Shown: piece by piece, positions 620 to 41,151 of the stretch
Layout of the letters: each line of letters opens with the position of its first letter
Numbering within the stretch: the stretch's first letter is position 1
Source of the DNA: a virus
Length of the DNA: 41,229 nt
Reading direction: 5' to 3' (one strand)
IMG/VR virus record: IMGVR_UViG_3300022540_000057
Location: 1 to 41,229 of that record
Position numbers and translations under genes: made by a program
Notes under the pieces: model-generated
What the model was told of the DNA's origin: nothing
The model's database searches: none
The model's input: only the letters and a program-made list of their open reading frames with translations

Positions 620-3600
620 ATGCCTTATATATCAACTGGAGAACCAACTACTCCTGGTAAAACAACTATGGACTACTCTAGAATGTCCTTTGACTACGAC
701 TATCCTAACAACCTAAACCTAAAGCCAGGCAGTAAACTCCACGATAGGATAAAAAGTAAGATTTGGCAGCGTGCTAGGGAATCCCGCAATGAAATGTCTA
801 AACGATTCAAATCCTGGAAAGAAATAGACAAAACTATGACTGTCTACATCCCTTTAAAAGACAAAGAAAAAGAACTTAGAGAAAAAGACCCTACTAAACC
901 CGTATCTATCGTAATCCCTTACTCTTACTCAGTCCTTGAATCCCTCATGACTTACATGTCTATGGCATTCTTCCAGGACCCTATATTCAGATATGAAGGT
1001 GTAGAAGACTCAGACACTATCGGTGCTATGTTAATGGAACTAGTTATCAAAACACACTGTATCAAAAGTAAAGTCCCATTAGCTATCCACACTATACTTA
1101 AAGACAGCTTTAAATACGGCATAGGCATTGGAATACCTGGATGGACTAAACAAAATGGCAGAGTACCCATCAGATCTAATTCAATAACTAATAGCACCCT
1201 AGGCACTCAAACAACACAGCAAGTAGAATTCATAGACAAACTAGTCTACGAGGGCAATAACTTAACAAATATCGACCCTTACTTATGGTTCCCTGACCCT
1301 TCTGTCTCAAGTGATAAAATCCAAGACGGTGAATTTATAGGCTGGTTAGATCGTGACAACTACATGAACATGTTATCTAACGAAGCATCTTCAAATGGCG
1401 AAATCTTCAATGTTAAGTATCTAAAAGCTAAAAAATGGAAAAGGTCTTCACTCTCAATAGATGAAAGTGAAAGGGAAACAAAGTTCGGTGGAACATCTAA
1501 AGAACATCGTGGATTAACCACTTCGACCAATCCAGTAGATAACATAAAAATGTACATTAACTTAATTCCAAAAGACTGGGGAATCGGCCAAGGTGAATAC
1601 CCAGAAAAGTGGTTCTTTAACTTAGCCGCTGACGACATTATTACAGAAATGTATCGAGCCGACCACAATCATGGAATGTATCCTATGGCTATAGCCAGTC
1701 CTGAATACGACGGATATACTATAACCCCTATTGGCCGGATGGAACTTTTAACAGGTTCACAAGAAACAATAAACTTCCTTTTTAACTGTTATGATGACAA
1801 AACTGAAGTACTAACAGATGTTGGATGGATTAATTTGTCTAAGGCAAAAGAGTCAAATATGAATGTTGCTACAGTAGACCCTAAAAATGGATCTATGTGG
1901 TTTGAAGAACCTAAACAGTGGTTTGAGTATGACTATGATGATATACTAAACACATTTGAGTCTAAGAGATATAGTTTATCTGTGACTCCAAATCATAGTA
2001 TGTTTGGTAAATATAGATACTCTAACAAACCTGAATTTAAGCCTGCTAATCTATTACATAATAGAAGTAAATGGGATGAGTTTAAGATTCCTACAACTGT
2101 ACAATTTATAGGTATTCAACTAAACTATACAGAGATACCTCCAGCAAAACGAAAAGGTAATACTGGTAGACTACCTAGACAATCTCCAGTTAATATAAGT
2201 CCTGATATATTACCTGGATTTCTTGGTTGGTTACTCAGTGATGGAAGTATAAATATAGGTAAAAGTAGTGGGACTTATACAGTAACTATAAAGCAGGTTA
2301 AAGAGAAATACTTTAATGAGATAGACTATTTTACCAAAAATCTTCCATTTCATGTAGGTAAATACTTTAGTAAAAAACAATCTTCATGGCAGTGGAGTAT
2401 AACTGATAAGGGATTTTATAGTTGGTTGAAGGACAACTGCTATCATGGAGGAACAACTGGAGAGTTTAAAGAAGTTCCTGATATTATAAGGAATGCTGAT
2501 AGATTTACCTTAAATAGGTTCCTTGAGTCTTTCATACATGGAGATGGGCATGAGATAGAAGGACATAAAAACTTAATTCAGATAGGCACCGAAAGTAAAC
2601 AACTATCTGATGACTTACAAGAGATAGCTATAAAACTTGGGTATAGTTGCTCTATTAGAAATACATGTACTAGTACAGGTAAGCCTTTCTGGTACTTAAA
2701 TATAAACAAGAATGCTCCATGGGCTACTATAACAGACAAAAATTCATCTGAAGTCTACTACAAAGGTAAAGTATACTGCTTTGAAAACTCTACTCATCTA
2801 ACTATAATCAGACGTAATGGGAAAGTATCTATATGTGGACAGAGTCATATAGCTAATGTCCGCAAGGCTGTAAACGATATGTTCGTGGTCGACCCTTACC
2901 TAATAAACATAAATGATTTAACAAAGCCTGGCGCTGGAAAGATAATAAGGACTCGCCGTCCTGCCTGGGGACATGGTGTAAAGGGAGCGGTAGAACAACT
3001 AATGGTCAATGACATTACTAGATCCAACCTAGCTGACGTTCAGTATATGACTAACACTATGGATCGTCTATTCGGCACTGATTCTTCAATGGCTGGTGTT
3101 ATGCGACAGGGAGGTCCTGAGCGACTAACTAAAGGTGAATTTCAAGGCACACGTGGCTCAGCTATTTCCAGACTACAACAAACTGCTATGATCATAGGTA
3201 TGCAATTCATGCAAGACATAGGCACTATGTTTGCTGTTCACACTCAACAAAATATGACTACTGAAGCCTTCATAAATACCACTGGAAGATATGCTGGACA
3301 GTTAGCCAAAATCTATGGCCCAGAAGCTACAAAGATCGCAGTCTCACCTATGGACCTAGCAATTGCTACAGACTTAATCGTCCGAGACGGTTCAATCCCA
3401 GGAGGAAACTTCTCTGAAGCCTGGCTACAAATGTTTAAAACTATTGGCTCCTCAGAACAACTAATGCAAGAATTTGATATAACAAGAATCTTCATGTATA
3501 TAGCGCAAGAACTCGGTGCTAAGAATGTAGAAGACTTCAAACGTAATGTAGATCGAATCCAGCCACAAGTACAACCTAACGCACAAGTAACTCAGCAAGT

Positions 3601-3637
3601 ACAAGCTGGAAATTACATACCAGTAGGAGAAACATGA
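620..3637 (+). CDS. Portal protein precursor interrupted by an intein
   Basis: The portal forms the dodecameric ring at the unique capsid vertex through which DNA passes. The 1005-residue precursor consists of an N-extein (1-389), an intein (390-741) and a C-extein (742-1005). Removing the intein joins ETINFLFN to SHIANVRKAVNDMFVVDP, which restores the continuous segment expected of podovirus-type portals; the mature protein would be 653 residues. The C-terminal 30 residues are Gln-rich (QPQVQPNAQVTQQVQ), as is common for portal tails. ATG 620 follows GGAG at 610-613. The stop overlaps the next gene. Extein codons often end in C (GAC, TAC), while intein codons are mostly T-ending. Confidence 0.9.
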   Translation: MPYISTGEPTTPGKTTMDYSRMSFDYDYPNNLNLKPGSKLHDRIKSKIWQRARESRNEMSKRFKSWKEIDKTMTVYIPLKDKEKELREKDPTKPVSIVIPYSYSVLESLMTYMSMAFFQDPIFRYEGVEDSDTIGAMLMELVIKTHCIKSKVPLAIHTILKDSFKYGIGIGIPGWTKQNGRVPIRSNSITNSTLGTQTTQQVEFIDKLVYEGNNLTNIDPYLWFPDPSVSSDKIQDGEFIGWLDRDNYMNMLSNEASSNGEIFNVKYLKAKKWKRSSLSIDESERETKFGGTSKEHRGLTTSTNPVDNIKMYINLIPKDWGIGQGEYPEKWFFNLAADDIITEMYRADHNHGMYPMAIASPEYDGYTITPIGRMELLTGSQETINFLFNCYDDKTEVLTDVGWINLSKAKESNMNVATVDPKNGSMWFEEPKQWFEYDYDDILNTFESKRYSLSVTPNHSMFGKYRYSNKPEFKPANLLHNRSKWDEFKIPTTVQFIGIQLNYTEIPPAKRKGNTGRLPRQSPVNISPDILPGFLGWLLSDGSINIGKSSGTYTVTIKQVKEKYFNEIDYFTKNLPFHVGKYFSKKQSSWQWSITDKGFYSWLKDNCYHGGTTGEFKEVPDIIRNADRFTLNRFLESFIHGDGHEIEGHKNLIQIGTESKQLSDDLQEIAIKLGYSCSIRNTCTSTGKPFWYLNINKNAPWATITDKNSSEVYYKGKVYCFENSTHLTIIRRNGKVSICGQSHIANVRKAVNDMFVVDPYLININDLTKPGAGKIIRTRRPAWGHGVKGAVEQLMVNDITRSNLADVQYMTNTMDRLFGTDSSMAGVMRQGGPERLTKGEFQGTRGSAISRLQQTAMIIGMQFMQDIGTMFAVHTQQNMTTEAFINTTGRYAGQLAKIYGPEATKIAVSPMDLAIATDLIVRDGSIPGGNFSEAWLQMFKTIGSSEQLMQEFDITRIFMYIAQELGAKNVEDFKRNVDRIQPQVQPNAQVTQQVQAGNYIPVGET
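1787..2842 (+). other. Intein with LAGLIDADG homing endonuclease inside the portal gene
   Basis: The 352-residue insert starts with catalytic Cys (CYDDKTEVLTDVGW, block A). It has the block B motif TPNH at intein residues 67-70, two LAGLIDADG helices (FLGWLLSDGS near 145-154 and FLESFIHGDG near 245-254) and a C-terminal block containing VYCFENSTHLTIIRRNG. The last residues are SICGQ and the next extein residue is Ser 742. The expected penultimate His is Gly and the terminal Asn is Gln. Both variants are known among inteins, but together they predict slower or altered C-terminal cleavage. The reading frame is open throughout, which excludes an intron. The insertion site lies in a conserved portal segment, typical for homing. 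Confidence 0.9.
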
Positions 3638-10339: not shown

Positions 10340-13300
10340 ATGTCAAGACTCTGGACAGATAATTCAACAGATCGAGTATGGACAGATAATTCTACTGATA
10401 GGCTGTGGAATGATAGTACATTTACTACTGCTAGTCCTACTACATTGGCTACTACAGTTGCTCCAACTACTATAGTTACAACTGTAGCACCTACTACTTT
10501 ACCTCCTACTACTATATTACCACCTACGACTTCTCCACCTACTACATTAGTTCCTACCACTTTAGGCCCAACCACAGTAGGTCCTTCAACTGCCGTACCA
10601 ACAGTAGGTCCGACTACTATAGCACCTGAACCTAAGCATGGTTATGCACTGGTAAGGAATGGTTGGTGTGAAGATGGATTTAAGAGATGTAAGTGGTCTA
10701 GTCTTGGAAGGACTATGGCAAGTCAGAGTAGTAATGCTATAGATGAAAGAGGTAGAATGTTTACTTGGGGACAAAATTATTATTCCCAAAGTGGTCAAGG
10801 ATTAGGTATTCCAGCTGGAGAATTATCACAGATAGAATATGCTACACAGATTGGTGCAGAGAGTAATTGGGTTAAGGCCGAATCAGGAGAGTTGTCAACT
10901 ATAGCAATTAATAAAGATGGTGAACTATGGGGATGGGGTAATGCAGATAATGACTGTGAGCCTTTTGGTCTACCACCTTTTTCTGGGGATAATGGTGATG
11001 CTAGATTTTACTACCCAAGAATGGTAACTCCAGGATATGTATGGAAAGACTTCACCCATGACTATTATCATACTATGGCTATAGATGAAAATGATAAGTT
11101 ATGGATCTGGGGAATGAACTATGATGAATGTTTTGGGATGAGAGGAGTTCCTATACCTTATAATAATGGTTCAGCTACACCGATCCAGCATACATATCTA
11201 ACTGATGATGTAAAGTTAATAGATTGTGAATTGTTAGGTAATGTAGTTGTAACAACTAATGATAAAGTATATGTATTCGGTGAAGGATTTTATACCTTCT
11301 TTGGATTTCCTGATCTAAAAGAGCCAAGAGAAATAACTGGATTGATTATTCCTTTAGGTGAAACTATAACTGAAATCACCTCATCTAATATGGGAATAAC
11401 TGCATTATTGTCTAATGGTGAACTATGGGCAGCTGGACAGAGTTATATCTTTGGTGATAACCGTACTGCATACCCTGCTGGATCAGACACTTTTGTTAAG
11501 ATCCCTTTCTTTATTGGAAAAGAAGTTGTAAAAGTAAGGAATACATCACTTGGTGCTACAAGTATGTTTGTGATAGATGCTAATGGAAACATTTGGGGAT
11601 GGAGTTATACTACTCAATTCTATCCTGGAAATAGTTTACCAATTCCAGCTTCATATAATGAGTTTATGCTAGTCGCTTCAGAATATGAAGGGCAATATAA
11701 ATGGATAGACATGATAAACAATGAGCATCAACAATGTTATCAAACAATAGATAAAAATGGATATCTTTATACATGGGGACGACAGTGGTGGGGACCACAC
11801 TTAGCATTAGGTGCTGCATATGATCAATCTGCAGCAGACGACGATCCTAATATTACAGATATAGTAAAGGCAAGACTATATGCAGGTAAAGCTGCAAGAG
11901 CACTTGACTACAAACAAGAATTTACTACTTTAAATACTATACCAGTCGGTGAATCGAACTACATCCAACCACTTGACCAAGATAAACGACATAAACCCTG
12001 TGGACACTGGCATAAAAGACTGTTTGAAGAGGAAGTTGAATATCCTGTAAACTGCTGGATGCCTAGTCTAGCAGTCCATAATGAGTTAATTTTCTTCGTT
12101 GCATCTGGCAAACATCAACAACTTCATATAGCTGACACCGGCAGTGAAGTGTTATTCTTTACTTATAATATAGATACTGGAGTATGGGAGTGGTTACTGT
12201 ACGAACAAAACATAAACGCATCTAACTTTCCAGGCGGTGCAGCTATCGACATAGACATCTATGCATTCTTTAACTATAAAGCAGATATATCTGGTGATAG
12301 ACTAAATGAAATATTTACAAATCCAGCTATGGGAATCTGGGTACTACACAATGATATATTAAAGTATACCGAGTGGACAGATAACATACCAATGTCTGGA
12401 CAAAATAAACTAGGTGTGCATTCTACTGGATTAGTCGCTTTGGCTTACACTAATACAGCAGGACAAGTTTTAATAAAGGTATCAACCGACTTCGGTGTTA
12501 CATTTAGTAATGTAAAAACACTGCCAACACTATCTGCAAGAAAAGACTATAGTTTAATAGTAGACCCTAATGGATATATTTATCTAGCACACCAGATATC
12601 AACCACATCTATAAAGATTGAAAGGTCAATAAATAATGGAGTTAGCTGGACTACACAGATAGTTTCTAACTATATAATGCCTAACATAACCAAAGTCAAA
12701 TTAATCTCTGACAATGCTATGCTATTCTTAATCTGTGCTAGTGAGACGGCTACAGCTATAGAACGCAGTGAGAATGATGGAGTTAGTTGGACAACTTCGG
12801 GAGCCGGAGAACCTGGAAGTTCTATAGTCGGCTCAGTCTGTAATATATCTGACGGAGATGATAACTATGCTATAGTATTAGTAGATGGTGATACTATTGA
12901 ATATAAAACTTTTCCATCAGGTGAACAATATACAGTCTACGGAACTATGTATAACTATATCTGGGACTTTAACTATGGAGATTATACTTGGTTAGAAAGA
13001 GATATCGCGCATCTTAGTGTGGATAGTGAAAATATGGATATAAGTGTGCAAGAATCAAATTCTACACTAGAAGGCTACAATGGAAGATTTGCTTATTCAT
13101 CTTACGGATTTTTCTCTGCACCTGATAATCATGTAGCGATAGTAATATCAAGTAATAAAGGAGCTAATTGGCAGGTAATATCTGTCCCACTTGGCTACAA
13201 TAACGAGAATGAAATTTCAGATTTTAAAGGCTGTCCTTTATTCTGTATCAAAGATATTCCATACCTTAATCACATATGGAGTTTTGAAAAAAGTGATTGG

Positions 13301-13363
13301 AATGAAAAGTTTGTAGAGCAAAAAGATAAATACGTTAAAGTTAACAAATGTGAATGTAAATAG
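10340..13363 (+). CDS. Large tail protein with Thr/Pro linker, RCC1-like propeller and Asp-box repeats
   Basis: This 1007-residue protein has four parts. Residues 3-26 carry an eight-residue motif (WTDNSTDR) in three copies. Residues about 30-95 are Thr/Pro repeats (PTTLATTVAPTTIVTT). Residues about 125-500 hold RCC1-type blades with GWGNADND, WIWGMNYDECFG and YTWGRQWWG spaced about 50 residues. The C-terminal half holds sialidase-type Asp boxes (INNGVSWTT, ENDGVSWTT, SNKGANWQV). It should form two propellers on a flexible stalk, used for surface binding or as an adhesin-like fibre. Codons shift from T-ending to C-ending near 11930, matching the domain join. The stop codon overlaps a palindromic repeat. 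Confidence 0.8.
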   Translation: MSRLWTDNSTDRVWTDNSTDRLWNDSTFTTASPTTLATTVAPTTIVTTVAPTTLPPTTILPPTTSPPTTLVPTTLGPTTVGPSTAVPTVGPTTIAPEPKHGYALVRNGWCEDGFKRCKWSSLGRTMASQSSNAIDERGRMFTWGQNYYSQSGQGLGIPAGELSQIEYATQIGAESNWVKAESGELSTIAINKDGELWGWGNADNDCEPFGLPPFSGDNGDARFYYPRMVTPGYVWKDFTHDYYHTMAIDENDKLWIWGMNYDECFGMRGVPIPYNNGSATPIQHTYLTDDVKLIDCELLGNVVVTTNDKVYVFGEGFYTFFGFPDLKEPREITGLIIPLGETITEITSSNMGITALLSNGELWAAGQSYIFGDNRTAYPAGSDTFVKIPFFIGKEVVKVRNTSLGATSMFVIDANGNIWGWSYTTQFYPGNSLPIPASYNEFMLVASEYEGQYKWIDMINNEHQQCYQTIDKNGYLYTWGRQWWGPHLALGAAYDQSAADDDPNITDIVKARLYAGKAARALDYKQEFTTLNTIPVGESNYIQPLDQDKRHKPCGHWHKRLFEEEVEYPVNCWMPSLAVHNELIFFVASGKHQQLHIADTGSEVLFFTYNIDTGVWEWLLYEQNINASNFPGGAAIDIDIYAFFNYKADISGDRLNEIFTNPAMGIWVLHNDILKYTEWTDNIPMSGQNKLGVHSTGLVALAYTNTAGQVLIKVSTDFGVTFSNVKTLPTLSARKDYSLIVDPNGYIYLAHQISTTSIKIERSINNGVSWTTQIVSNYIMPNITKVKLISDNAMLFLICASETATAIERSENDGVSWTTSGAGEPGSSIVGSVCNISDGDDNYAIVLVDGDTIEYKTFPSGEQYTVYGTMYNYIWDFNYGDYTWLERDIAHLSVDSENMDISVQESNSTLEGYNGRFAYSSYGFFSAPDNHVAIVISSNKGANWQVISVPLGYNNENEISDFKGCPLFCIKDIPYLNHIWSFEKSDWNEKFVEQKDKYVKVNKCECK

Positions 13364-24155: not shown

Positions 24156-24467
24156 CTATTCCATAAAATGGACTGGTTTGTTTAGTGTTCTAGCTATACC
24201 TATTTCCCTCTTTACACCTTCTGACTTTTTCCAGTTGCCAAAAGAGGAAATGTATAGTTGATCACACCAATGAATGAAGCATATATCAAGCCATTTCCAG
24301 TAACTCCATTTTTTTGACAAGTTACATTCAGTTGCTATAGGATGAGAGTGGGAGATAGGACTGAAGACTACATATCCTTCATTTATAAGTTTGCCAGCTA
24401 ATTTATTAACCTCTTTAAAACTTTCCTTTTCATATCCTGTATAGGGCGTAGCTAGATAAATCTTCAT
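24156..24467 (-). CDS. DUF1937 family protein (nucleoside deoxyribosyltransferase-like fold)
   Basis: This 103-residue protein starts MKIYLATPYTG and has GYVVFSPISHSHPIA, WKWLDICFIHWCDQLYI and SEGVKREIGIARTLNKPV. This motif series is that of DUF1937, related to nucleoside 2-deoxyribosyltransferases. A role in nucleotide metabolism during phage replication is likely, but the reaction is not established. The start overlaps the polymerase stop by 4 bp, and GGAG lies ahead of it. Confidence 0.85.
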   Translation of the reverse strand: MKIYLATPYTGYEKESFKEVNKLAGKLINEGYVVFSPISHSHPIATECNLSKKWSYWKWLDICFIHWCDQLYISSFGNWKKSEGVKREIGIARTLNKPVHFME

Positions 24468-26968
24468 TTATTTCTCCTTAGTTTTTTATATGCTAGTTCT
24501 ATCTTAACTGCAAGTGTGTGTAAGTCATCTGGGATATCTTTGCTTTTATATTCTATCATATTATCTTTACACATATCTAATCCAATAGTTACATCGGCAG
24601 GAATTGGAATCTTTACACCTTTCCAATAAAGTGGAGTTTCAAGTGAGTCTTTAATAAGTTTGATCATCCTAGCATGTTCAATCCAAGGTATAGATAAAGG
24701 GATTTGAAACACTACCGAGTCATGTACTTGGGCTAGGAGTTCTACAGGCTTAAACAAATCTTGATTATAATAGATGTATTCAAGTCCTTGTTCATTTATC
24801 TTATCGGCCGTTGTAGATTGTGGAAGCTGTGCGTAGGCTTCACGGTAGGTAGCAAGGCAAGCAGATCTGGATACACCAGGATGGGAAGGAATTATGGGGC
24901 CTAGAAACAATCTATTACGTCCCATCAAGTTTGTAACAGTACGATTTTTCTTAAGCATATTTTGAATAGTCAGGTGAAACCCTCCACGGATTTGAGGGTA
25001 ACCCTTGTGAATCTTTTCTATGAGATACTTAGCATCTCGTTCAGTTAGTTCATTTTTAAGTGCAAAGGTTTTATATCCTACATCATAATTAGTAGCGTGA
25101 TTCCCCTTTTTTCCGTAAAAGCGTTCTGACTGTCTACCGTCACCGAGTGTGGATGAACCGTCTTCACTTAAAATCTCATCATAAGGCTTACCAAAGATAA
25201 CTGAAGCAGTCATACGATGAAGGTCTATTCCTTGCTCAAAGGCTTCGATTTGAGAAATGACACCTCCAACGTAAGCCACGATTCTATTCTCGATCTGGCT
25301 GAGGTCGATAGAATATCCAAGATATCCTTCATCGAAGACGAAGAATTTGAGTAAGTCATGTGGCCAGTTTTGTTGATTACCACCAGTTCCAAATATAGTC
25401 TCACCTGATGATAGTCTTCCTGTTTCAGCTCCGACAGGTTTATATGAACTACGATATCTCCCATCTTTATCCACCTTTTTTATATTTAAATAAGTTGATA
25501 TACGCTTTGACAATCCACGAATGTCAAGCATGATTTGTGCAGCTTGAATGCCTTGCCTTGCAAGCCGTTTCATAGCATCTACATCGGTAGTAGGAACATA
25601 TTTACCTTTACTATTACGTTTTTTATAAGGTTTTATTTTAAGTTCGTTGTAGAAATACTTCATTAATTGTTTAGGTGAATTATGATTAATAGCGTAACCT
25701 ACTTCTTTATGAAGCTGCTCGATTAAGATATCAAGTTTAACCTGTTCCTTTTTTGCATACTTAATTATACCATCTACATCAACTTTAATTCCACGCTCAG
25801 CCATATAAATTAAAGGTTTGATTAACTTACGTTGTCGATTATAGGTGTCGAGATTCCCTTGTTTCTTCAACTCAGCAATTTGCTCAGGGTGTGCAGCTGA
25901 AGTGGCGATAGAGTCAAGACCGTTGTAGTTCCACCAAGTTTCCCAGGTGCCAATCCCACGCTTCATCCATTGTTTACCATCTTGTTTGTAATAAGGTATG
26001 TCAGTATGCATAGTTGTAACAAAATCCAGGCCAGCTGGGTAATCAGGTAACATAATTTTCTGAGCGATCTGTGTACAGTGAATTTCTCCTCTAGGAACCA
26101 TACCATACTTGTGATACATAAATTGAGTATCGAAGATAAAATTAGCCCCTCGCTTACTTATACGTGGAGATTGAATTATCTTAGCAATAAGCAACATTAT
26201 TTCATACTCTTGCTCAATATGAAAATAGTCGCCTTTAGCATCACGAAAGGGAATACTTATAGCATGTGTAGAATCCCAAGCAAAAGATATACAATCTAGT
26301 TCACGATTAACTACTTCGATATCCAGGTCTACCGTTCTACCTCGTAAACCACCTTCATAGATGTAGTTTAGTATATCTACACATTCATTGTAAGTAGGTG
26401 CAATCTTTATTGATCTGCCAAGTTGTCTAATCTCATGATAAGTTGATTCAATCTTAGCTTGGAGCAAGTCAGTGACGATTAGAGGTTTGTTAAGAAAATT
26501 GAACTTTGGAGGGATGAAAGTAGCCGGATGAAACGTGGGAATTATTTTTAATCCAGGAACTAAAGTGGAATTAAGTACAGAACCTCTCCATTTGGTAATC
26601 CCGACTCGATTAGTCAAGGCAATTAAAGGTATATTTCCACAAGCTATTACAATATTAAGATTGGGAAGTTTAGATAGTTCTTCACCAAGTTCTTGAATAT
26701 AAATATAGCCATTCTCTGACATAGTATATCGACCGGACGAGTTAAGATTGATATACTTCACCAATGGTTCGTCTAAGTCCTTAATTACGTTTGTTAGGTA
26801 GATAGACGAACGAGGAATCTTGGCCATTGTTAGGCAATCATTAAGACCCTTACCAGCTGGTCCTATGAATACTTTTCCATATCTTATTTCCTGCACTCCG
26901 GGTTGCTCACCTACAATTGCTATGGTAGCATTGGTAGGGCCGGAAGGATAAACAGTTGTTTGTCTCAT
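24464..26968 (-). CDS. DNA polymerase family A with N-terminal uracil-DNA-glycosylase-like domain
   Basis: From ATG 26968 (GGGAG 8 bp ahead) the protein has 834 residues. Residues about 1-170 are a UDG family 4/SPO1-polymerase-type domain with GEQPG at 20-24 and FHPAT near 150. A DnaQ-type exonuclease follows with Exo I DLDIE, Exo II NFIFD and Exo III YNGLD, all with their acidic residues. The polymerase has motif A YSIDLSQIENR, a helix-O segment RFYGKKGNHATNYDVGY and motif C VHDS near 750. In motif C the usual HDE is HDS. The UDG domain lacks the Cys set expected for an Fe-S cluster. The protein should replicate phage DNA with proofreading. Confidence 0.93.
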   Translation of the reverse strand: MRQTTVYPSGPTNATIAIVGEQPGVQEIRYGKVFIGPAGKGLNDCLTMAKIPRSSIYLTNVIKDLDEPLVKYINLNSSGRYTMSENGYIYIQELGEELSKLPNLNIVIACGNIPLIALTNRVGITKWRGSVLNSTLVPGLKIIPTFHPATFIPPKFNFLNKPLIVTDLLQAKIESTYHEIRQLGRSIKIAPTYNECVDILNYIYEGGLRGRTVDLDIEVVNRELDCISFAWDSTHAISIPFRDAKGDYFHIEQEYEIMLLIAKIIQSPRISKRGANFIFDTQFMYHKYGMVPRGEIHCTQIAQKIMLPDYPAGLDFVTTMHTDIPYYKQDGKQWMKRGIGTWETWWNYNGLDSIATSAAHPEQIAELKKQGNLDTYNRQRKLIKPLIYMAERGIKVDVDGIIKYAKKEQVKLDILIEQLHKEVGYAINHNSPKQLMKYFYNELKIKPYKKRNSKGKYVPTTDVDAMKRLARQGIQAAQIMLDIRGLSKRISTYLNIKKVDKDGRYRSSYKPVGAETGRLSSGETIFGTGGNQQNWPHDLLKFFVFDEGYLGYSIDLSQIENRIVAYVGGVISQIEAFEQGIDLHRMTASVIFGKPYDEILSEDGSSTLGDGRQSERFYGKKGNHATNYDVGYKTFALKNELTERDAKYLIEKIHKGYPQIRGGFHLTIQNMLKKNRTVTNLMGRNRLFLGPIIPSHPGVSRSACLATYREAYAQLPQSTTADKINEQGLEYIYYNQDLFKPVELLAQVHDSVVFQIPLSIPWIEHARMIKLIKDSLETPLYWKGVKIPIPADVTIGLDMCKDNMIEYKSKDIPDDLHTLAVKIELAYKKLRRNK

Positions 26969-27174
26969 ATAGATGTCTCCCACCACTTAGTTGGTGTTAT
27001 ACACCTAAGTATTCCCCATATACATAAAGTTCCATATCCAAGAACTACACCCCAAGGCTTTGCTAGTGGATCAAATGGCTGTCTAATAAATACAGCTTCT
27101 ATACCATTCCAGAATGTTCCACCTAATCCTAGTATAATAAATAGCTTAAAGAATATCACATCTAAATTTTTCAT
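26965..27174 (-). CDS. Small membrane protein
   Basis: This 69-residue protein has two hydrophobic segments (about 6-25, VIFFKLFIILGLGGTFW; and about 42-58, WGVVLGYGTLCIWGILRCI) joined by a short polar loop. It overlaps the polymerase start by 4 bp (ATGA) and has GGGAGG as RBS. The topology resembles a small two-helix holin or membrane anchor, but nothing beyond that supports a function. Confidence 0.68.
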   Translation of the reverse strand: MKNLDVIFFKLFIILGLGGTFWNGIEAVFIRQPFDPLAKPWGVVLGYGTLCIWGILRCITPTKWWETSI

Positions 27175-27249: not shown

Positions 27250-27272
27250 GATCGTTTGGGAATTAAACGATC
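27250..27272. repeat. 23-bp palindromic repeat, copy 9 (supplies a stop codon)
   Basis: Both arms are full consensus (GATCGTTT and AAACGATC). Read on the minus strand it supplies the last codons of the ParB/methyltransferase gene: ATC GTT TAA, Ile-Val-stop. Only 38 bp separate it from copy 8. Confidence 0.92.
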
Positions 27273-28582
27273 TGTTGTGAATGCAATTTTATTAAAAAAC
27301 TATCTCTGTAGGCTTTAGACAACTCAAATCCTAGCGGACTCATACCAAGTTGGTCGGCTGCTAGAATACCATTACCTGATCCCAGGAAAGGAATCAAAAC
27401 ACGCGAGCCAGGAAATGCAAAGGTATTATAGATCTCCTTCATCAACTCGATGGGACGTTCAGTAGGATGAGTTTTCTTCTGTGGTGGGACTGGAGGGTAA
27501 TCAAAGATGTTTCTCCTACCTGGCTTATTAAGTGCCGGACGGCCCTTCCAAGCATAGAAAAACATCTCATAAGAATTTGCTAGATGTATTTCAGGTCGTT
27601 TAGATTGGCCATATCCTTTTGTCCACACTCCGCACATACGAGTAGTGTTAAATCCAGCATGGGTTAATTCCTTATATACAACTTCAATCCATGGCTGGGG
27701 AGCAAACCAGCATATTAGCCAAGAATGCTGGGCCATTACTCGATAGCATTCTTGAAATAGTAAGGACAAAAATTCTATATATTTATCTGCATCAATTTCA
27801 TTGTAAGAGTCGGAGGAATATATAGACTCACCATCTGTCTTTTTAGCTTGCTGGAGCCTTATAGCATACGGAGGGTCTATTTCCACAAGATGGTAAACGG
27901 AATCAGGAATCTTCTTTACACCTTCAAAGAAGTCATTTAGAACAAAGCAGTTAGATAACTTAGTAAAAGAATTACTAGTAGTTTCTAACTGAATTTTCTG
28001 TGCAATAACTTCCTTAACAACAAGCTCATCCATCTTCTTAATTACAGTCGAAGCATCCTTTTGTGTCTTACATTTGTCAAATAGTTCCGGAAATGCTTCA
28101 CGAGCTTCAGCACGTTTAATAGCGGTAGAAACAGATGCTTTGGAAACTCCGATTAGTTTGCCAGTATCATCAGTTCCCCAGCCAACTGCATCTGGGCCAG
28201 GTGCCTTTGTGCCATGGATAGATTGTTGTAGTTCATGTATTTCCCTTGTTAAGTTATCAAACTCCCAAAATTCCATATCCTTTCTGTGAAAGTTTTCAGA
28301 CTTTTCTATTATTTTTATTTCTAAGTCTGATAAACTAGATGGAAATATCCTTACTGGAATTATCTCAACTTTGTTTTTCAACAATGTTCGTAATCTGCGT
28401 TCACCGGCTAGTAATAGATACTTATTATCATCTATTTCTTTGACAGCTAATGGAGCAATCAGTCCACTATTCTTCATTGACTCTTCAAGACTAATCAAGT
28501 CTCCCATTTCTACCCTTGTTCTATCTCCAATGTCTATGTTACTTATATCTACCATTGCAACTTTTCCTACTTCTATAGACAT
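27263..28582 (-). CDS. ParB-like domain fused to a DNA (adenine/cytosine-N) methyltransferase
   Basis: The 439-residue protein has a ParB/Srx-type N-terminal domain with GERRLR at 60-65, and a helix-turn-helix-like segment (GKLIGVSKASVSTAIKRA, 141-158). A beta-type amino-methyltransferase domain follows, with DPPY at 236-239, HPTERPIELMKEI near 376, and FLGSGNG near 399. The motif order IV then I fits the beta class. It probably methylates adenine or N4-cytosine in phage or host DNA, for protection from restriction or for regulation. GGAG precedes the ATG. Its stop lies in a palindromic repeat. Confidence 0.88.
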   Translation of the reverse strand: MSIEVGKVAMVDISNIDIGDRTRVEMGDLISLEESMKNSGLIAPLAVKEIDDNKYLLLAGERRLRTLLKNKVEIIPVRIFPSSLSDLEIKIIEKSENFHRKDMEFWEFDNLTREIHELQQSIHGTKAPGPDAVGWGTDDTGKLIGVSKASVSTAIKRAEAREAFPELFDKCKTQKDASTVIKKMDELVVKEVIAQKIQLETTSNSFTKLSNCFVLNDFFEGVKKIPDSVYHLVEIDPPYAIRLQQAKKTDGESIYSSDSYNEIDADKYIEFLSLLFQECYRVMAQHSWLICWFAPQPWIEVVYKELTHAGFNTTRMCGVWTKGYGQSKRPEIHLANSYEMFFYAWKGRPALNKPGRRNIFDYPPVPPQKKTHPTERPIELMKEIYNTFAFPGSRVLIPFLGSGNGILAADQLGMSPLGFELSKAYRDSFLIKLHSQQIV

Positions 28583-28585
28583 AAT

Positions 28586-28795
28586 TTATTCTCCTAACAT
28601 TTTAAGCAATTCTGCCGCTTGAGCCTTGGATATTTTAGAGGCGGCCTTAGACTGACTGATTTTGTTTTTAGTTGATTTAGACTTTTTCTTATCTGGAATA
28701 CGACGTGAAAGACGAAGTTCTCGTAAGTATTCAATAGCTTCGTCTTTATTCATGTCGGATACAGATTTGATTGGTAGGTCTTCAATAGTAGCCAT
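28586..28795 (-). CDS. Lys/Ser-rich small protein with SAP-like helices
   Basis: The 69-residue protein has an N-terminal helical stretch (MNKDEAIEYLRELRLSRRIP), a Lys/Ser-rich linker and a C-terminal helix (KAQAAELLKMLGE). Short helix-linker-helix basic proteins can bind DNA, but no family is certain. It shares TAATG with the upstream gene and ends 3 bp before the ParB/methyltransferase gene, so the two are probably co-translated. Confidence 0.65.
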   Translation of the reverse strand: MATIEDLPIKSVSDMNKDEAIEYLRELRLSRRIPDKKKSKSTKNKISQSKAASKISKAQAAELLKMLGE

Positions 28796-29034
28796 TATTT
28801 ACATCTCCTTTTAGCTTTAGCTAAACTCGGTAAGATTTCCCTAGGCTTGACTGCCCCGTCTAGGATTGCACCTATAACTATATTACCGTGGTTTTCTATA
28901 AGATCTAATACATCGTCTAAGATTATAGAAAATATAGATTTGCGTATGCCATAGATGGATATTAGTTTATCAGCCCGTAACTTTTGTTCGTCCGAGATTT
29001 CGAAAGAGAACTTCGCCTTATATTCACTATTCAT
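28795..29034 (-). CDS. Hypothetical small helical protein
   Basis: This 79-residue protein has FSFEISDEQKLRADKLISIY followed by a helix (FSIILDDVLDLIENHG) and a basic tail (SLAKAKRRCK). Such N-terminal layout is seen in small phage regulators with ribbon-helix-helix-like starts, which is only a suggestion. It follows a palindromic repeat and GGAGG. Confidence 0.65.
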   Translation of the reverse strand: MNSEYKAKFSFEISDEQKLRADKLISIYGIRKSIFSIILDDVLDLIENHGNIVIGAILDGAVKPREILPSLAKAKRRCK

Positions 29035-29048
29035 ATTTTACCTCCATA

Positions 29049-29071
29049 GATCGTTTAACAATTAAATGAAC
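29049..29071. repeat. 23-bp palindromic repeat, copy 10
   Basis: Plus-strand arms are GATCGTTT and AAATGAAC. In the minus direction it starts at the last stop-codon base of the sulfoquinovose synthase gene and ends 14 bp ahead of the 29034 start. Confidence 0.88.
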
Positions 29072-30249
29072 TACTTCCACTTTGTTTCAGGCATAATTAC
29101 AGATCCAACTACCCTTTCTTTATACTGTAAAAGGTAAGATAGCAAAGTATGAATCTCATGTTTGATATTAGTTGTAGGAATATAGCCTAAGCTACGAAGA
29201 CCTTTAGAAGTAGGATTATAGTAGTGATTTTCATCCTCACTACGTGGATTGTCGAGGTGAGTTACAGAAGGCTTCAGGTTAAGGGATTTAGCTTTCCGTA
29301 CTACAATATTGGCTAGGTTATTTAACGAGTAGGTAGACTCATACTGATTAAAGACTTGATAGGTGCCAGGTTTAGGTGGGTTGTCTATGATAAGGTTAAT
29401 GCATTGGATAGAGTCTTTAAGTGGTAAGAATCCACGCTTTTGATTTCCCGAACCGTAGACAGTTAAAGGATGATTGATTATAGCTTGAGCACAGAATCGG
29501 TTGATTATAGTACCAAAATACTGGTCGTAGTCAAAGCGGGTTACAAGGGAAGGTTCGGTGTCGGTTAAGCCATAGACTACACCTTGCATGATATCAGTGG
29601 AAGTTAATCCCCAAGTTTTGCAGGCAAAGATAATATTATGAGTATCGTGGACTTTGGATAGATGATAGAAAGAACCTGGAGATTTAGGAAAAGGGAGACC
29701 AGCCATAGGACACGGAGCTGTTTGGTTATCTAAAGTGGACAAGCCTAAACATTTTTTAGGTATCTCCCCTTCAGGTATGTCACAGTCAGGCGTACCATAC
29801 TCGCCCATTGTGCCTAGTTTGATTAAGTGAACATCAGGACATTTTTCCTTTATAGTCCACAGGAGATTTAAAGTACTTAGGACATTCTCACGCTGGGTGG
29901 AAGCGGCATGTTCTGAGTCGATCATAGACCAAGGTGCAGAAGGTTGTTCGGCTAGGTGGATTATCGTGTCAGGATAGAATTCTTCAAATAAGTTATCCAA
30001 GCCAAACTTTCCAATATGGAATAGGGAATATTTAGATATATTTGCATAGTTTTTGTAAGACTTTAAAATATTCAGTCGATCAAGTCTACAACTTATAGGA
30101 GTTAGTGAGTTAGAACCTACATCTCTAACTCTTTGCCTCCTTGTATAATTATCAATGCCTGCTACTTGATAACCTTTTTTTAACAGATGGAGAGCCAAAG
30201 ACCAGCCAATATACCCATCGTAACCTAGAATTAAAACTTTCTTTTTCAT
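29071..30249 (-). CDS. sqdB: UDP-sulfoquinovose synthase (SQD1/SqdB family)
   Basis: The 392-residue enzyme makes UDP-sulfoquinovose from UDP-glucose and sulfite, the head-group donor for the sulfolipid SQDG. The NAD-binding motif is G9YDG12YIG15W. The active-site set is Thr147 in KLGTMGEYGTP, Tyr195 and Lys199 in FYHLSKVHDTHN. Further family hallmarks are EQPSAPWSMID, QGVVYG, NRFCAQAIINHPLTVYGSG, RGFLPLKDSIQCINL and HYYNP near the C terminus. Length equals bacterial SqdB. No glycosyltransferase (SqdX) partner is present, so the host would have to complete the pathway. It overlaps the upstream small gene by 4 bp (ATGA), with AAAGGA as RBS. Confidence 0.94.
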   Translation of the reverse strand: MKKKVLILGYDGYIGWSLALHLLKKGYQVAGIDNYTRRQRVRDVGSNSLTPISCRLDRLNILKSYKNYANISKYSLFHIGKFGLDNLFEEFYPDTIIHLAEQPSAPWSMIDSEHAASTQRENVLSTLNLLWTIKEKCPDVHLIKLGTMGEYGTPDCDIPEGEIPKKCLGLSTLDNQTAPCPMAGLPFPKSPGSFYHLSKVHDTHNIIFACKTWGLTSTDIMQGVVYGLTDTEPSLVTRFDYDQYFGTIINRFCAQAIINHPLTVYGSGNQKRGFLPLKDSIQCINLIIDNPPKPGTYQVFNQYESTYSLNNLANIVVRKAKSLNLKPSVTHLDNPRSEDENHYYNPTSKGLRSLGYIPTTNIKHEIHTLLSYLLQYKERVVGSVIMPETKWK

Positions 30250-30458
30250 ATATCTGACTTTCCTTTTTTACATAAAGTGTTTATTATAAGTTCTGCTCCT
30301 TTACTATCAATGTTTGAAATAGCTCTGAATGTAGTATCTGGAGATTCAAATTCAGATACTAAAAGCAAAAATACTTTACCTTCAAGTATCCATTCTATAA
30401 GCTGTGCTATGTGGTTAAGTTGTTCTTCAATATTATTAGATGATTCTTGATTACACAT
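30246..30458 (-). CDS. Hypothetical small protein upstream of sqdB
   Basis: This 70-residue acidic protein has a central hydrophobic run (EWILEGKVFLLLVSEFE, about 22-38) and no Cys pair. It is translationally coupled to the sulfoquinovose synthase gene by an ATGA overlap and has GGAG as RBS. No family is recognised. Confidence 0.62.
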   Translation of the reverse strand: MCNQESSNNIEEQLNHIAQLIEWILEGKVFLLLVSEFESPDTTFRAISNIDSKGAELIINTLCKKGKSDI

Positions 30459-30771: not shown

Positions 30772-31188
30772 TTACTTCCTAATCACATACTTCTTAATAG
30801 TATTACTATCACCGTAGGTATCATCTTTCTTTACACCAAGAATAGCCCAACCAGTCATGCCAATCAAGTCATCTTCCCACGAAAAGGGACGGGAATAGTC
30901 AAGGTCGATAGCAGCAGCGAAGTTACGAAAGTCGTTGAGAGCACGGGCAAACTGTTTAAGATCAAGTTTTTCACGGTCGAGTTCCCAGAAGAAATCGTTA
31001 AACTCGATTACCATAGGATCATCAGGGATGTCGAAGACGGGTTGATACCAGGTACAGTCATTCTTATCTGATATGCCAGAACGTACTGAGATAATTCGGA
31101 AGTTTGCCTCGGTACCTGCGGGGAGGATTTTAGGTTCTTGCGCGTCGTTGATTTCTTGTTCCATGTCTGAATAATCAGTTAAGGACAT
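30772..31188 (-). CDS. DUF669-like phage protein, possible ssDNA-binding
   Basis: This 138-residue protein is acidic. It has LPAGTEANFRIISVRSGIS, WYQPVFDIPDDP, FNDFFWELDREKLDLKQFAR and a C-terminal strand region (MTGWAILGVKKDD). The pattern matches DUF669-type proteins encoded beside Sak4-like ATPases and nucleases, where an ssDNA-binding role has been proposed. The acidic character fits SSB-like proteins. TTAAGG-poor spacing is compensated by AAAGGAGTAAACTATT upstream of the ATG. Confidence 0.65.
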   Translation of the reverse strand: MSLTDYSDMEQEINDAQEPKILPAGTEANFRIISVRSGISDKNDCTWYQPVFDIPDDPMVIEFNDFFWELDREKLDLKQFARALNDFRNFAAAIDLDYSRPFSWEDDLIGMTGWAILGVKKDDTYGDSNTIKKYVIRK

Positions 31189-32551: not shown

Positions 32552-33361
32552 TTAAATTTCTAACTTAGGCTTATCCTTCCATGGTAAGCCTATCTTTTTA
32601 AGTAACTTCTTAATATCTGGATCTTCTGTATGTGAAAGTTTGCCATTAGACTTAAGGCGTGAACGGGCAAGATATTTGCCTTGAGCTTCAACTAACATTT
32701 CACGTTTTACAGGAGTACCCTTGCCAAGTAGTACATATAGTTCATCAAATTGCAAAGGGATAGTTAGTAGTGCATTACCAGTGATGTTAAGACGGTATTT
32801 CTCAACTTTAATAGGCACACCATCTTTAGTCATACCTATTGTGTCCTCAGTTTCTTTTAAGTGGGCAAGGAGAAAGAAGTCAGCTTTGAGTGACATTAGA
32901 CGCTTGATCTTATTAACAATTTTTACTTTAGTAGGATTATAATCTCGACGATGCATAGGAACTTCACCTGCACGGCCTGCAAGTTTCATAGTATAGTTCA
33001 TAACTGCATCATTGAACATAGAAAGGTCAAGTGCATAAGTGCCAAATAAGTCAAAGTAGCCTGTCTGAATACGGAGTTCAGTACTCTTTTCCCATTCAGC
33101 ATAGACGGTAGGATTGTAAGGGTCTTCATTTTCCCAGCGAGTATCGGCTGTAATATCACCTTTATCTATCCAAGGCTTAAGGCATTTAGTCCCACCAGGA
33201 TCGAAGGAATCTATATGGACAGGAAAGCGAGCAGTAGAAAGTAGGTAAGTCTTACCACTACCAATATCGCCAGAGATTATAGCACTAAAGCGCTTTTGTA
33301 AAGGGTCGTTAGCGTAATATTCACGTACTCGAAGGAGTTCTTTTTTAGAGTCGTAGGGCAT
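32552..33361 (-). CDS. Sak4-like / AAA_24-type RecA-fold ATPase
   Basis: The 269-residue protein has Walker A GDIGSGKT at 31-38, then HIDSFDPGGTK, and a Walker B-type strand (KADFFLLAHLKE) near 155-166. QFDELYVLLGK and a tail with DPDIKKLLKKIGL follow. This is the layout of phage AAA_24/Sak4-like ATPases that promote single-strand annealing in recombination. The nuclease gene lies directly upstream, with its stop 2 bp away, as expected for a recombination pair. Confidence 0.82.
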   Translation of the reverse strand: MPYDSKKELLRVREYYANDPLQKRFSAIISGDIGSGKTYLLSTARFPVHIDSFDPGGTKCLKPWIDKGDITADTRWENEDPYNPTVYAEWEKSTELRIQTGYFDLFGTYALDLSMFNDAVMNYTMKLAGRAGEVPMHRRDYNPTKVKIVNKIKRLMSLKADFFLLAHLKETEDTIGMTKDGVPIKVEKYRLNITGNALLTIPLQFDELYVLLGKGTPVKREMLVEAQGKYLARSRLKSNGKLSHTEDPDIKKLLKKIGLPWKDKPKLEI

Positions 33362-33363
33362 GA

Positions 33364-34347
33364 TTATTTATCTCCTTGCCACTTAAGATCTTTTTTATGT
33401 GTAGTTTGCATAGCTGCGGGATTCCAGAAGCTTTGAACATAACCCAAAGGTGGCTCATGTGCTTGGCGTAAAGGATTATCCCAGGACATGCAGAAATCGT
33501 GATAGGTGCACCCTCTGTATTTAGAACAACTGCCGGAATCCATAGGAAAGGCCATTAGCACAGAGTCTGAATCTTTGCATGAAGATAACTTATCCATTTC
33601 CATCTCAAGTTTGTCATACAAGTCATTTACAGTCCATAGCCACACATTCATCTGTTCAGGAGTTTTCCAAGCAGGGACTCGTTTAAAGTTGATATGATAA
33701 CCTTGGGCTCTAGCCCTGCCTCCACGAGGTAGGTAGTGGAAAGAAGTGCCACAGAATTCTATACCAATTACTTGTTCAATAGGATACATGCAGTAAAGGC
33801 AGTGTGTATAAGTGCCGTTTTGAAGACCTAGGAAGAAACTGTCTGCCCACCAAGGGTAATCCATAGATCGTTCAGTAGCTGACTTATGATCCCAAGAGAA
33901 TATCTTTCCATCTTCACACCGTTCCAAGACAGAGTCCATTCGATAGTGGAGAACCCGAGATTCGTCAATAGGTACTGTGCCAGAAGTTTCAGTATATAGT
34001 AGTTTGTTATCAACCAAGTCACGCGGTCGCTCGTTAGCAAACTTTGTAAGTGCCATTGCTACAGCTATAGGATCTTTGGGCCGGAATAGTTCGTCGGTGC
34101 TTTCGGAAAACTTGGAACGGTAAAAGTCTAAAAATTTAAGATAAGCCCCCTTAACATCATCGTAGCCGTTAATAAGTTGATGTTCCCTTGCTCTGTGCCA
34201 AGATTCACCAAAGTGCAAATCATGTTCGGGACGATCTGGACGCCAACCTAATATGTATTGATAGAAGTACTGTCTAGGGCAAGTAGCGAAGCAAGTAAGT
34301 TTGGAGGAATCTATGATGGAGTGAGTTGGATGACTAGGTAGTTGCAT
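33364..34347 (-). CDS. Cas4/RecB-like PD-(D/E)XK exonuclease with Cys cluster
   Basis: From ATG 34347, with GGAG ahead, the protein has 327 residues. The N-terminus has SKLTCFATCPRQYFYQYILG, then HFGESWHRARE. The catalytic core has RMDSVLE and FSWDHKSA, giving the D...DxK set. The C-terminus has CSKYRGCTYHDFC, which with the N-terminal Cys makes a likely Fe-S cluster as in Cas4 and AddB. It should resect DNA ends for the annealing ATPase encoded next. Confidence 0.88.
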   Translation of the reverse strand: MQLPSHPTHSIIDSSKLTCFATCPRQYFYQYILGWRPDRPEHDLHFGESWHRAREHQLINGYDDVKGAYLKFLDFYRSKFSESTDELFRPKDPIAVAMALTKFANERPRDLVDNKLLYTETSGTVPIDESRVLHYRMDSVLERCEDGKIFSWDHKSATERSMDYPWWADSFFLGLQNGTYTHCLYCMYPIEQVIGIEFCGTSFHYLPRGGRARAQGYHINFKRVPAWKTPEQMNVWLWTVNDLYDKLEMEMDKLSSCKDSDSVLMAFPMDSGSCSKYRGCTYHDFCMSWDNPLRQAHEPPLGYVQSFWNPAAMQTTHKKDLKWQGDK

Positions 34348-34531
34348 CTTCCTTATCTCCTTTTCCTTTAAATATAGTCCCAGGCCCTTTATCCCAGTCC
34401 ATTTGATCTTCATGTCCAGGACAGCAATCTTTAGGGAAGAAACTTTCATAATGCTCACTATAATAGGGACTTCCTAAGTGTGAACCTTTAGTACATCCAC
34501 AGTTTACACATACTTCTTTTAATTTATCCAT
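34334..34531 (-). CDS. Small Cys/His-rich protein
   Basis: The 65-residue protein from ATG 34531 has CVNCGCTKGSH and a later CCPGHEDQMDW, suggesting a zinc site. A TTG three codons upstream is too close to GGAG to be the start. It overlaps the nuclease gene by 14 bp and the upstream gene by 8 bp. The Cys-x-x-Cys-G-C knuckle is common in phage early proteins. Confidence 0.7.
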   Translation of the reverse strand: MDKLKEVCVNCGCTKGSHLGSPYYSEHYESFFPKDCCPGHEDQMDWDKGPGTIFKGKGDKEDATT

Positions 34532-40248: not shown

Positions 40249-41151
40249 TTATCCATCATTATCTCTGTCCAAAATAGGCTTTAAGTCGCTAACACTTATC
40301 GAATCCCACGCATCTTGTTCTCTTCTATCCTTTTCAGCAATCTTCTCTTCATGCTTAGTCATTTCCTCATCTGATAATTTCCTAGGCCTTACATCAACAG
40401 GTTTAGACTTATCCCTAGCCCTAACCTTACCTTTAACTTTACCTTCTAGCCTATCAAGCAACTTCTTAGCTTCATTTTTAGACTTAGGCATTTCCTTATC
40501 CTGGATAGTTACAACACTCCCTCCAATCGGCCGAGATTTTAAGCCTAACCTTTCCCTTTCCTCATTTATATCTTTAAGCCTATCCTTAGCCGTATAAGTA
40601 TTTGTTAGATCAATAGGTTTAATAACTCCATTCTTATCAAATGATAAGCTATCCCTAACTTTCTTTGCCTCAGCTTTTTGCTCTTTCACTAACTTCCTAT
40701 CATATTCAGCCCATAGTGCAGATCGGTCAGTCTTAGGTACATAGTCCATTTCAGGCGCTGGTTCAACTGAGTTATTATTATGTGACTTAGCATATCCTCC
40801 TTTACCTTTAGCCCAGGTTTCAGGATCTATACCTTCTATCCTTAAATTTTCTAGTTGTCTGGCCCTAACTATCTTTTTCTGAGCTCGATTATACATACTA
40901 CCTTGATACAATCCTCTTTTAGTTAATAACTCATTAGCTTCTAAAATGGTATCTACTGACTTCGGTAGTAGATTATTAATCTTTAATATCTGACTACATA
41001 AATCCATACTCCAGTTAACTAACTGACTCATACTTTTAATAAACTTTCTCTCCCCATCCCAATATAATACCATCTCAGCTAATACTCTAACATCTACCCT
41101 ACTCTGAATCGGAATGCTAGCTTCTACCTTTCTACCCATCTTTTCGTTCAT
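40249..41151 (-). CDS. Charged helical phage protein of unknown function
   Basis: The 300-residue protein has an N-terminal domain (about 10-110) with SRVDVRVLAEMVLYWDGERK and FIKSMSQLVNWSMDLCSQIL. A highly charged helical remainder follows (EQKAEAKKVRDSL; KNEAKKLLDRLEGKVKGKVR; EKIAEKDRREQD). The N-terminal domain recalls a ribbon-helix-helix-like segment, which is uncertain. GGGAGG is present 8 bp ahead of ATG 41151. It is the first complete gene of the minus arm in the window. Confidence 0.68.
   Translation of the reverse strand: MNEKMGRKVEASIPIQSRVDVRVLAEMVLYWDGERKFIKSMSQLVNWSMDLCSQILKINNLLPKSVDTILEANELLTKRGLYQGSMYNRAQKKIVRARQLENLRIEGIDPETWAKGKGGYAKSHNNNSVEPAPEMDYVPKTDRSALWAEYDRKLVKEQKAEAKKVRDSLSFDKNGVIKPIDLTNTYTAKDRLKDINEERERLGLKSRPIGGSVVTIQDKEMPKSKNEAKKLLDRLEGKVKGKVRARDKSKPVDVRPRKLSDEEMTKHEEKIAEKDRREQDAWDSISVSDLKPILDRDNDG

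Follow-up and report, generated by a model that had tools for sequence, protein, structure and literature searches.

An SqdB-like gene of an uncultivated phage carries proline in place of an Agl3-essential arginine and may serve phage glycosylation

The window, by which we mean the whole 41,229-nt stretch of viral DNA analysed here (IMG/VR record IMGVR_UViG_3300022540_000057), carries an SqdB/SQD1-like gene that starts with ATG (Table 1); its strand had not been given in the preliminary description. As that description had stated, the gene lies in the replication arm, surrounded by genes for PolA, primase, ligase, exonuclease and AAA24, and it is coupled to a small gene, its start overlapping the upstream 70-aa ORF by 4 nt (ATGA). 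Comparison with relatives gave the conserved order for this phage group as ligase, exonuclease, AAA24, c1, (c11, dCMP deaminase), SqdB-like gene, c7, c6, ParB-methyltransferase, PolA and primase. In many relatives the dCMP deaminase (c10, Pfam 1.8e-18) stands where the window has the 70-aa ORF. The neighbouring c11 was suspected by eye of being a known nucleotide-modification domain, but it gave no Pfam match and falls into a PHROG of unknown function. The pair formed by c11 and the dCMP deaminase is found in swapped order with the SqdB-like gene in loci L079, L085 and L094, so the slot has been rearranged between phages. In most relatives that lack the SqdB-like gene, the slot is a clean dCMP deaminase-c7-methyltransferase junction with no remnant. 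Elsewhere in the window, a protein of the virion region (10340-13363) contains RCC1-like beta-propeller repeats.

Table 1. Positions in the window of the SqdB-like gene, its active-site motifs, its replication-arm neighbours and the genes at the contig ends
Feature	Position	Strand	Basis
Portal (SU10-like) with intein-like insertion; left contig end; in relatives, TerS-GT2-TerL lies upstream	620..3637	+	
DNA polymerase A with N-terminal uracil-DNA-glycosylase domain	24464..26986	-	
ParB-N / N6-N4 DNA methyltransferase fusion; downstream boundary of the slot	27263..28582	-	
c6, conserved neighbour, 69 aa	28586..28795	-	Comparison with relatives
c7, conserved, 79 aa, downstream of the SqdB-like slot	28795..29034	-	Comparison with relatives
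SqdB/SQD1-like NAD-dependent UDP-sugar enzyme, 392 aa	29071..30249	-	ORF, profile and structure matches
YHLSK, Y195 to K199 (SQD1 Tyr182/Lys186)	29653..29667	-	Alignment
T147 codon (SQD1 Thr145), within KLGTMGEYGTP	29809..29811	-	Alignment
EQPSAP motif, residues 101-106; P103 at the Arg position of SQD1/Agl3 EQRSAP	29932..29949	-	Alignment
70-aa ORF, function unassigned	30246..30458	-	ORF reading
c1, conserved small replication-arm protein	30772..31188	-	Comparison with relatives
AAA24 / Sak4-like ATPase; upstream boundary of the slot	32552..33361	-	
PD-(D/E)XK exonuclease	33364..34458	-	
Conserved gene, right contig end; in relatives, TerS-GT2-TerL follows	40249..41151	-	

The enzyme SQD1/SqdB makes a sugar that contains sulfur and occurs in the membranes of plants and cyanobacteria, and its family is annotated as producing the sulfolipid head group. 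A profile search matched the window protein over the whole of the NCBIfam UDP-sulfoquinovose synthase model NF041015 (profile positions 1-384 of 384, E 7.2e-141, 469.6 bits), and Arabidopsis SQD1 chains matched it at full length with E values of about 1e-105. The AlphaFold model of the protein (mean pLDDT 75) gave SQD1 (1i24/1qrr) as its top PDB match in Foldseek with an E value of 1e-36, followed by RmlB at 3e-18. The gene is thus confirmed as a genuine SqdB-like gene, with similarity far above chance. The catalytic Thr/Tyr/Lys and the NAD motif that had been claimed for it were all found, specifically G9, G12 and G15 of GxxGxxG together with T147, Y195 and K199; His196 and the TMGEYGTP motif are also shared with SQD1 (PDB 1qrr/1i24) and SqdB. 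Judged from its sequence and predicted model, the protein is SqdB-like in fold and in the framework of its chemistry. Its score nevertheless lies under the curated equivalog cut-off of NF041015, set at 575 bits, a value that one of two control genomes (S. elongatus and S. acidocaldarius) also failed to reach.

A difference from SQD1 and SqdB lies in the EQ-R-(S/A)AP motif, where the window protein has proline (P103), a change that the preliminary description had overlooked. In the archaeal homologue Agl3, alanine at His95, Arg101, Met145, Tyr182 or Lys186 abolishes activity (PMC4388408). The window protein keeps the counterparts of these residues with the sole exception of the arginine, and the essential or impaired Agl3 sites His95, Met145, Glu147 and Tyr148 correspond to its H98, M148, E150 and Y151. 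Since the essential arginine is replaced and the score falls below the curated cut-off, we do not class the protein as a UDP-sulfoquinovose synthase. Among the 124 dereplicated family members placed on the tree, proline occupies the arginine site in 80 and arginine in 44. Group-specific sites differ along the same line: the position of SQD1 Asn228, which is Thr in the window protein, is Asn in 41 of the 44 Arg-type members and Thr in 79 of the 80 Pro-type members. Both verified enzymes, SQD1 and Agl3, are Arg-type. A glycan of Haloferax bears methyl-sulfoquinovose, the pathway to which has not been identified (PMC8241124), and a Natrinema homologue has proline at the arginine site; for this reason proline alone is not proof that sulfonation has been lost.

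Phylogenetic analysis separated the SqdB/SQD1 family clearly from other SDR epimerases and placed the window protein inside it (SH-aLRT 99), so that the earlier concern that other sugar epimerases might claim the protein was settled in favour of the family. Of the two placements that had been proposed as a check, the alphaproteobacterial one did not emerge: on a tree that holds no named cyanobacterial sequence, the protein falls into a clade composed of viruses alone (37-38 rows, SH-aLRT 98-99), apart from the alphaproteobacterial sequences, and all 37 members of this clade have proline at the arginine site. The Pro-type cellular sequences come mostly from one bacterial phylum, which was reached via two MAG contigs, and Arabidopsis SQD1 groups with Arg-type sequences of that same phylum. 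Cellular Pro-type neighbourhoods were considered as a clue to the substrate and set aside, as they held no Neu genes, no consistent partner and mostly no obvious glycosyltransferase.

Scans of IMG/VR with two different alignments confirmed 121 and 127 contigs in overlapping sets, from each of which the best 80 were kept. These best 80 of each scan comprise at least 121 distinct viral SqdB-like proteins (69 Pro, 50 Arg and 2 other), and SqdB-like genes are therefore widespread in uncultivated phages. The cultured-phage collection yielded no SqdB-like homologue, only epimerases 21-26% identical over most of their length. About 50 distinct Arg-type viral proteins (L144-L146 and L159-L217) are encoded in glycan-looking cassettes, some on contigs of 100-266 kb; they are stronger candidates for phage enzymes that genuinely make UDP-sulfoquinovose. 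A viral UDP-sulfoquinovose synthase has been reported before, on a Mu-like virus contig from the Cariaco Basin, and was proposed as an AMG for host N-glycosylation (PMC7785012). It resembles the present gene in being virus-borne and in its annotated family, and differs in its Mu-like setting and its proposed role; the portion of that report available contains no analysis of the Arg/Pro site or of partner genes.

The nearest named phage, Desulfofustis phage LS06-2018-MD01 (OP947158.1; PolA 46%, MCP 51%), has the same replication-arm gene order as the window but carries neither the SqdB-like gene nor the GT2 glycosyltransferase described below. That phage was assigned through CRISPR spacers to Desulfofustis, a sulfate reducer (PMC10370329), and the phosphate-limited phototroph host that had been suggested for the window is unsupported.

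An SqdX-like gene is absent from the window, in agreement with the preliminary description, and SqdX-type GT4 (PF00534) was found in none of 23 phage records, the window included. We had at first accepted from the window alone that the gene has no glycosyltransferase partner of any kind, a conclusion that was rejected because relatives carry a GT2 in a segment absent here. The window contig opens shortly ahead of the portal and closes with the gene that TerS follows in relatives; exactly the TerS-TerL segment is thus missing from it. GT2 is present in 19 of the 23 window-like records; it is missing from the window and from three further records, each 32-36 kb long, which are counted regardless of whether the relevant segment is readable in them. 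In the records read, this enzyme is about 335 aa long, mostly 53-57% identical to the reference copy, and normally encoded between TerS and TerL. It is often accompanied by further glycosyltransferase or sulfotransferase-like genes and by a pectate-lyase-like beta-helix protein.

Co-occurrence was assessed on relatives gathered via TerL rather than via the SqdB-like gene, with L114 added from the SqdB-like set. Where TerS-TerL was readable, GT2 was present in 15 of 15 relatives with the SqdB-like gene and in two of nine without it (Fisher p 1e-4, uncorrected for relatedness). For 14 of the 15 positives, its family was confirmed with BLAST or by reading the gene, and for G270 with Pfam only; the two negatives that carry it are G295 and G296, the latter with its copy at another place. 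As the window contig lacks the TerS-TerL segment, we only infer GT2 for the phage from which it derives.

Sulfotransferase-like genes adjoin GT2 at L221:5297-5908, L222:8379-8969 and L219:7302-7796, with Pfam support only for L221, and a second route to sulfated phage glycans through such genes is possible on this evidence. The TerS-TerL glycan cassette of another relative encodes a protein in which B12-binding, radical SAM and GT2 domains are fused (L220:4046-6064). At the left contig end, the portal ORF of the window contains an intein-like insertion of ~350 aa with a LAGLIDADG domain (aa about 391-741); the portal of most relatives is 650 aa long and uninterrupted, while L272 has the same insertion (64% identity over the whole ORF).

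A second link to glycans came from genes of nonulosonate synthesis. A NeuB homologue lies 0-356 bp from the SqdB-like gene in eight Pro-type loci and in several gene orders, with NeuC in four and NeuA in six of these eight; the NeuC neighbours in L017, L134, L149 and L108 score above the curated NeuC (UDP-GlcNAc 2-epimerase) cut-off. Two of the loci, L108 and L136 (the latter from the same record as L017), belong to the window's own clade. In L148-L150 the NeuB cassette occupies the same replication arm, beside the same exonuclease, AAA24 and methyltransferase genes. Adjacency to NeuB requires four changes on the tree. By record, NeuB was found with 8 of 50 Pro-type and 1 of 44 Arg-type viral copies, a weak contrast (p 0.03), and none was found in the window record or in the window group. 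Other Pro- and Arg-type viral copies sit in cassettes that by eye resemble glycosyltransferases and methyltransferases.

Overall, we propose with a probability of roughly 0.6 that the gene encodes an SqdB-like enzyme which supplies a glycosylation system encoded by the phage with a UDP-hexose modified at C6. As an SDR of the SqdB/SQD1 family, and of the subfamily with proline at the EQRSAP arginine, the enzyme would bind NAD and a UDP-hexose and remodel C6; its product would most likely be used by the phage GT2, which may decorate part of the virion or a glycan on the host surface with this unusual sugar. Because the essential arginine is absent and kin of the gene sit with sugar-attaching genes, such a role in virus-run sugar-coating is more likely than one in membrane lipid synthesis. 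Of the two roles put forward in the preliminary description, the phage-specific glycan has thus become the better supported, through the co-occurrence of GT2, the kin beside NeuB and the glycan-looking cassettes; against this reading stand the distance between GT2 and the SqdB-like gene, the two relatives that have GT2 but not the SqdB-like gene, the lack of NeuB in the window group and the lack of Neu genes beside cellular Pro-type copies. The closest functional precedent is Agl3 of Sulfolobus acidocaldarius, a member of the same family whose UDP-sulfoquinovose goes into S-layer N-glycans and not into lipid; unlike the window protein, it keeps the arginine, and its R101A variant is inactive (PMC4388408).

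In our estimate, the odds are about evenly divided between an enzyme that adds sulfite, giving UDP-sulfoquinovose or a GlcNAc analogue, and one that stops at a 5,6-ene or 6-deoxy product. A more speculative extension, which we think improbable, is that Pro-type enzymes act on UDP-GlcNAc and, together with phage NeuC, NeuB and NeuA, yield, for use on virions or hosts, a nonulosonic acid sulfonated or otherwise modified at C9; the window enzyme would then provide the matching UDP-hexose for the GT2 of its own phage. We know of no description of a nonulosonic acid of this kind.

The strongest competing account overlaps with the glycosylation reading and differs in the product: the enzyme may act as a 5,6- or 4,6-dehydratase of UDP-hexose, no longer able to add sulfite, and provide a 6-deoxy or exo-glycal glycan sugar. 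The replacement of the arginine by proline speaks for this account, which accords with the formation of UDP-Glc-5,6-ene by Agl3 when sulfite is omitted (PMC4388408, PMC8987622) and, in the NeuB context, with the UDP-GlcNAc 5,6-dehydratase Pen, which serves pseudaminate synthesis (as cited in PMC8987622). However, the window protein retains the SqdB residues E150/Y151 and the TMG motif, and the Arg-to-Ala variant of Agl3 also scored as inactive when conversion was assayed without sulfite, from which it follows that the arginine is not a sulfite-only residue. We regard this account as possible but rather doubtful.

The position of the gene raises the question of whether it serves DNA or nucleotide modification, with the replication arm producing a sugar nucleotide for attachment to the bases of phage DNA, as the slot between dCMP deaminase/AAA24 and DNA methyltransferase/PolA is conserved in most contigs of the window clade. 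Such modification is unlikely: some relatives have nothing in the slot although they are collinear in all else and retain the deaminase, methyltransferase and polymerase, other copies lie in structural modules or glycan-looking cassettes, and a non-exhaustive search found no hypermodification gene. Less likely still is that the gene is an AMG sustaining host sulfolipid (SQDG) synthesis by providing UDP-sulfoquinovose to host SqdX/SqdD, even though homology to SQD1 is full-length, a host glycosyltransferase could serve, and one report proposes a viral UDP-sulfoquinovose synthase as an AMG (PMC7785012). The Arg-to-Pro change (PMC4388408), the lack of a GT4 partner and the virus-only clade ruled it out as the main reading. 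Together with the score under the equivalog cut-off, they also leave unsupported the earlier statement that the gene almost surely works in making the sulfolipid head group; the association of kin with NeuB and GT2, and a nearest named phage whose host is a sulfate reducer and not a phototroph, weigh further against this role. Lastly, a non-functional or structural relic, which the loss of the arginine might suggest, is hardly credible given the intact ORF and the invariance of Tyr, Lys and other active-site residues in viral relatives 52-61% identical to the window protein.

Much of the phage SqdB-like family lacks the arginine that is essential in Agl3 and has glycan genes nearby. Automatic annotation would label such genes as sulfolipid AMGs tied to phosphate or sulfur cycling in the host, whereas their context speaks for glycosylation. 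The Arg/Pro split and the links to NeuB and GT2 lead to concrete, testable predictions on new phage sugars.
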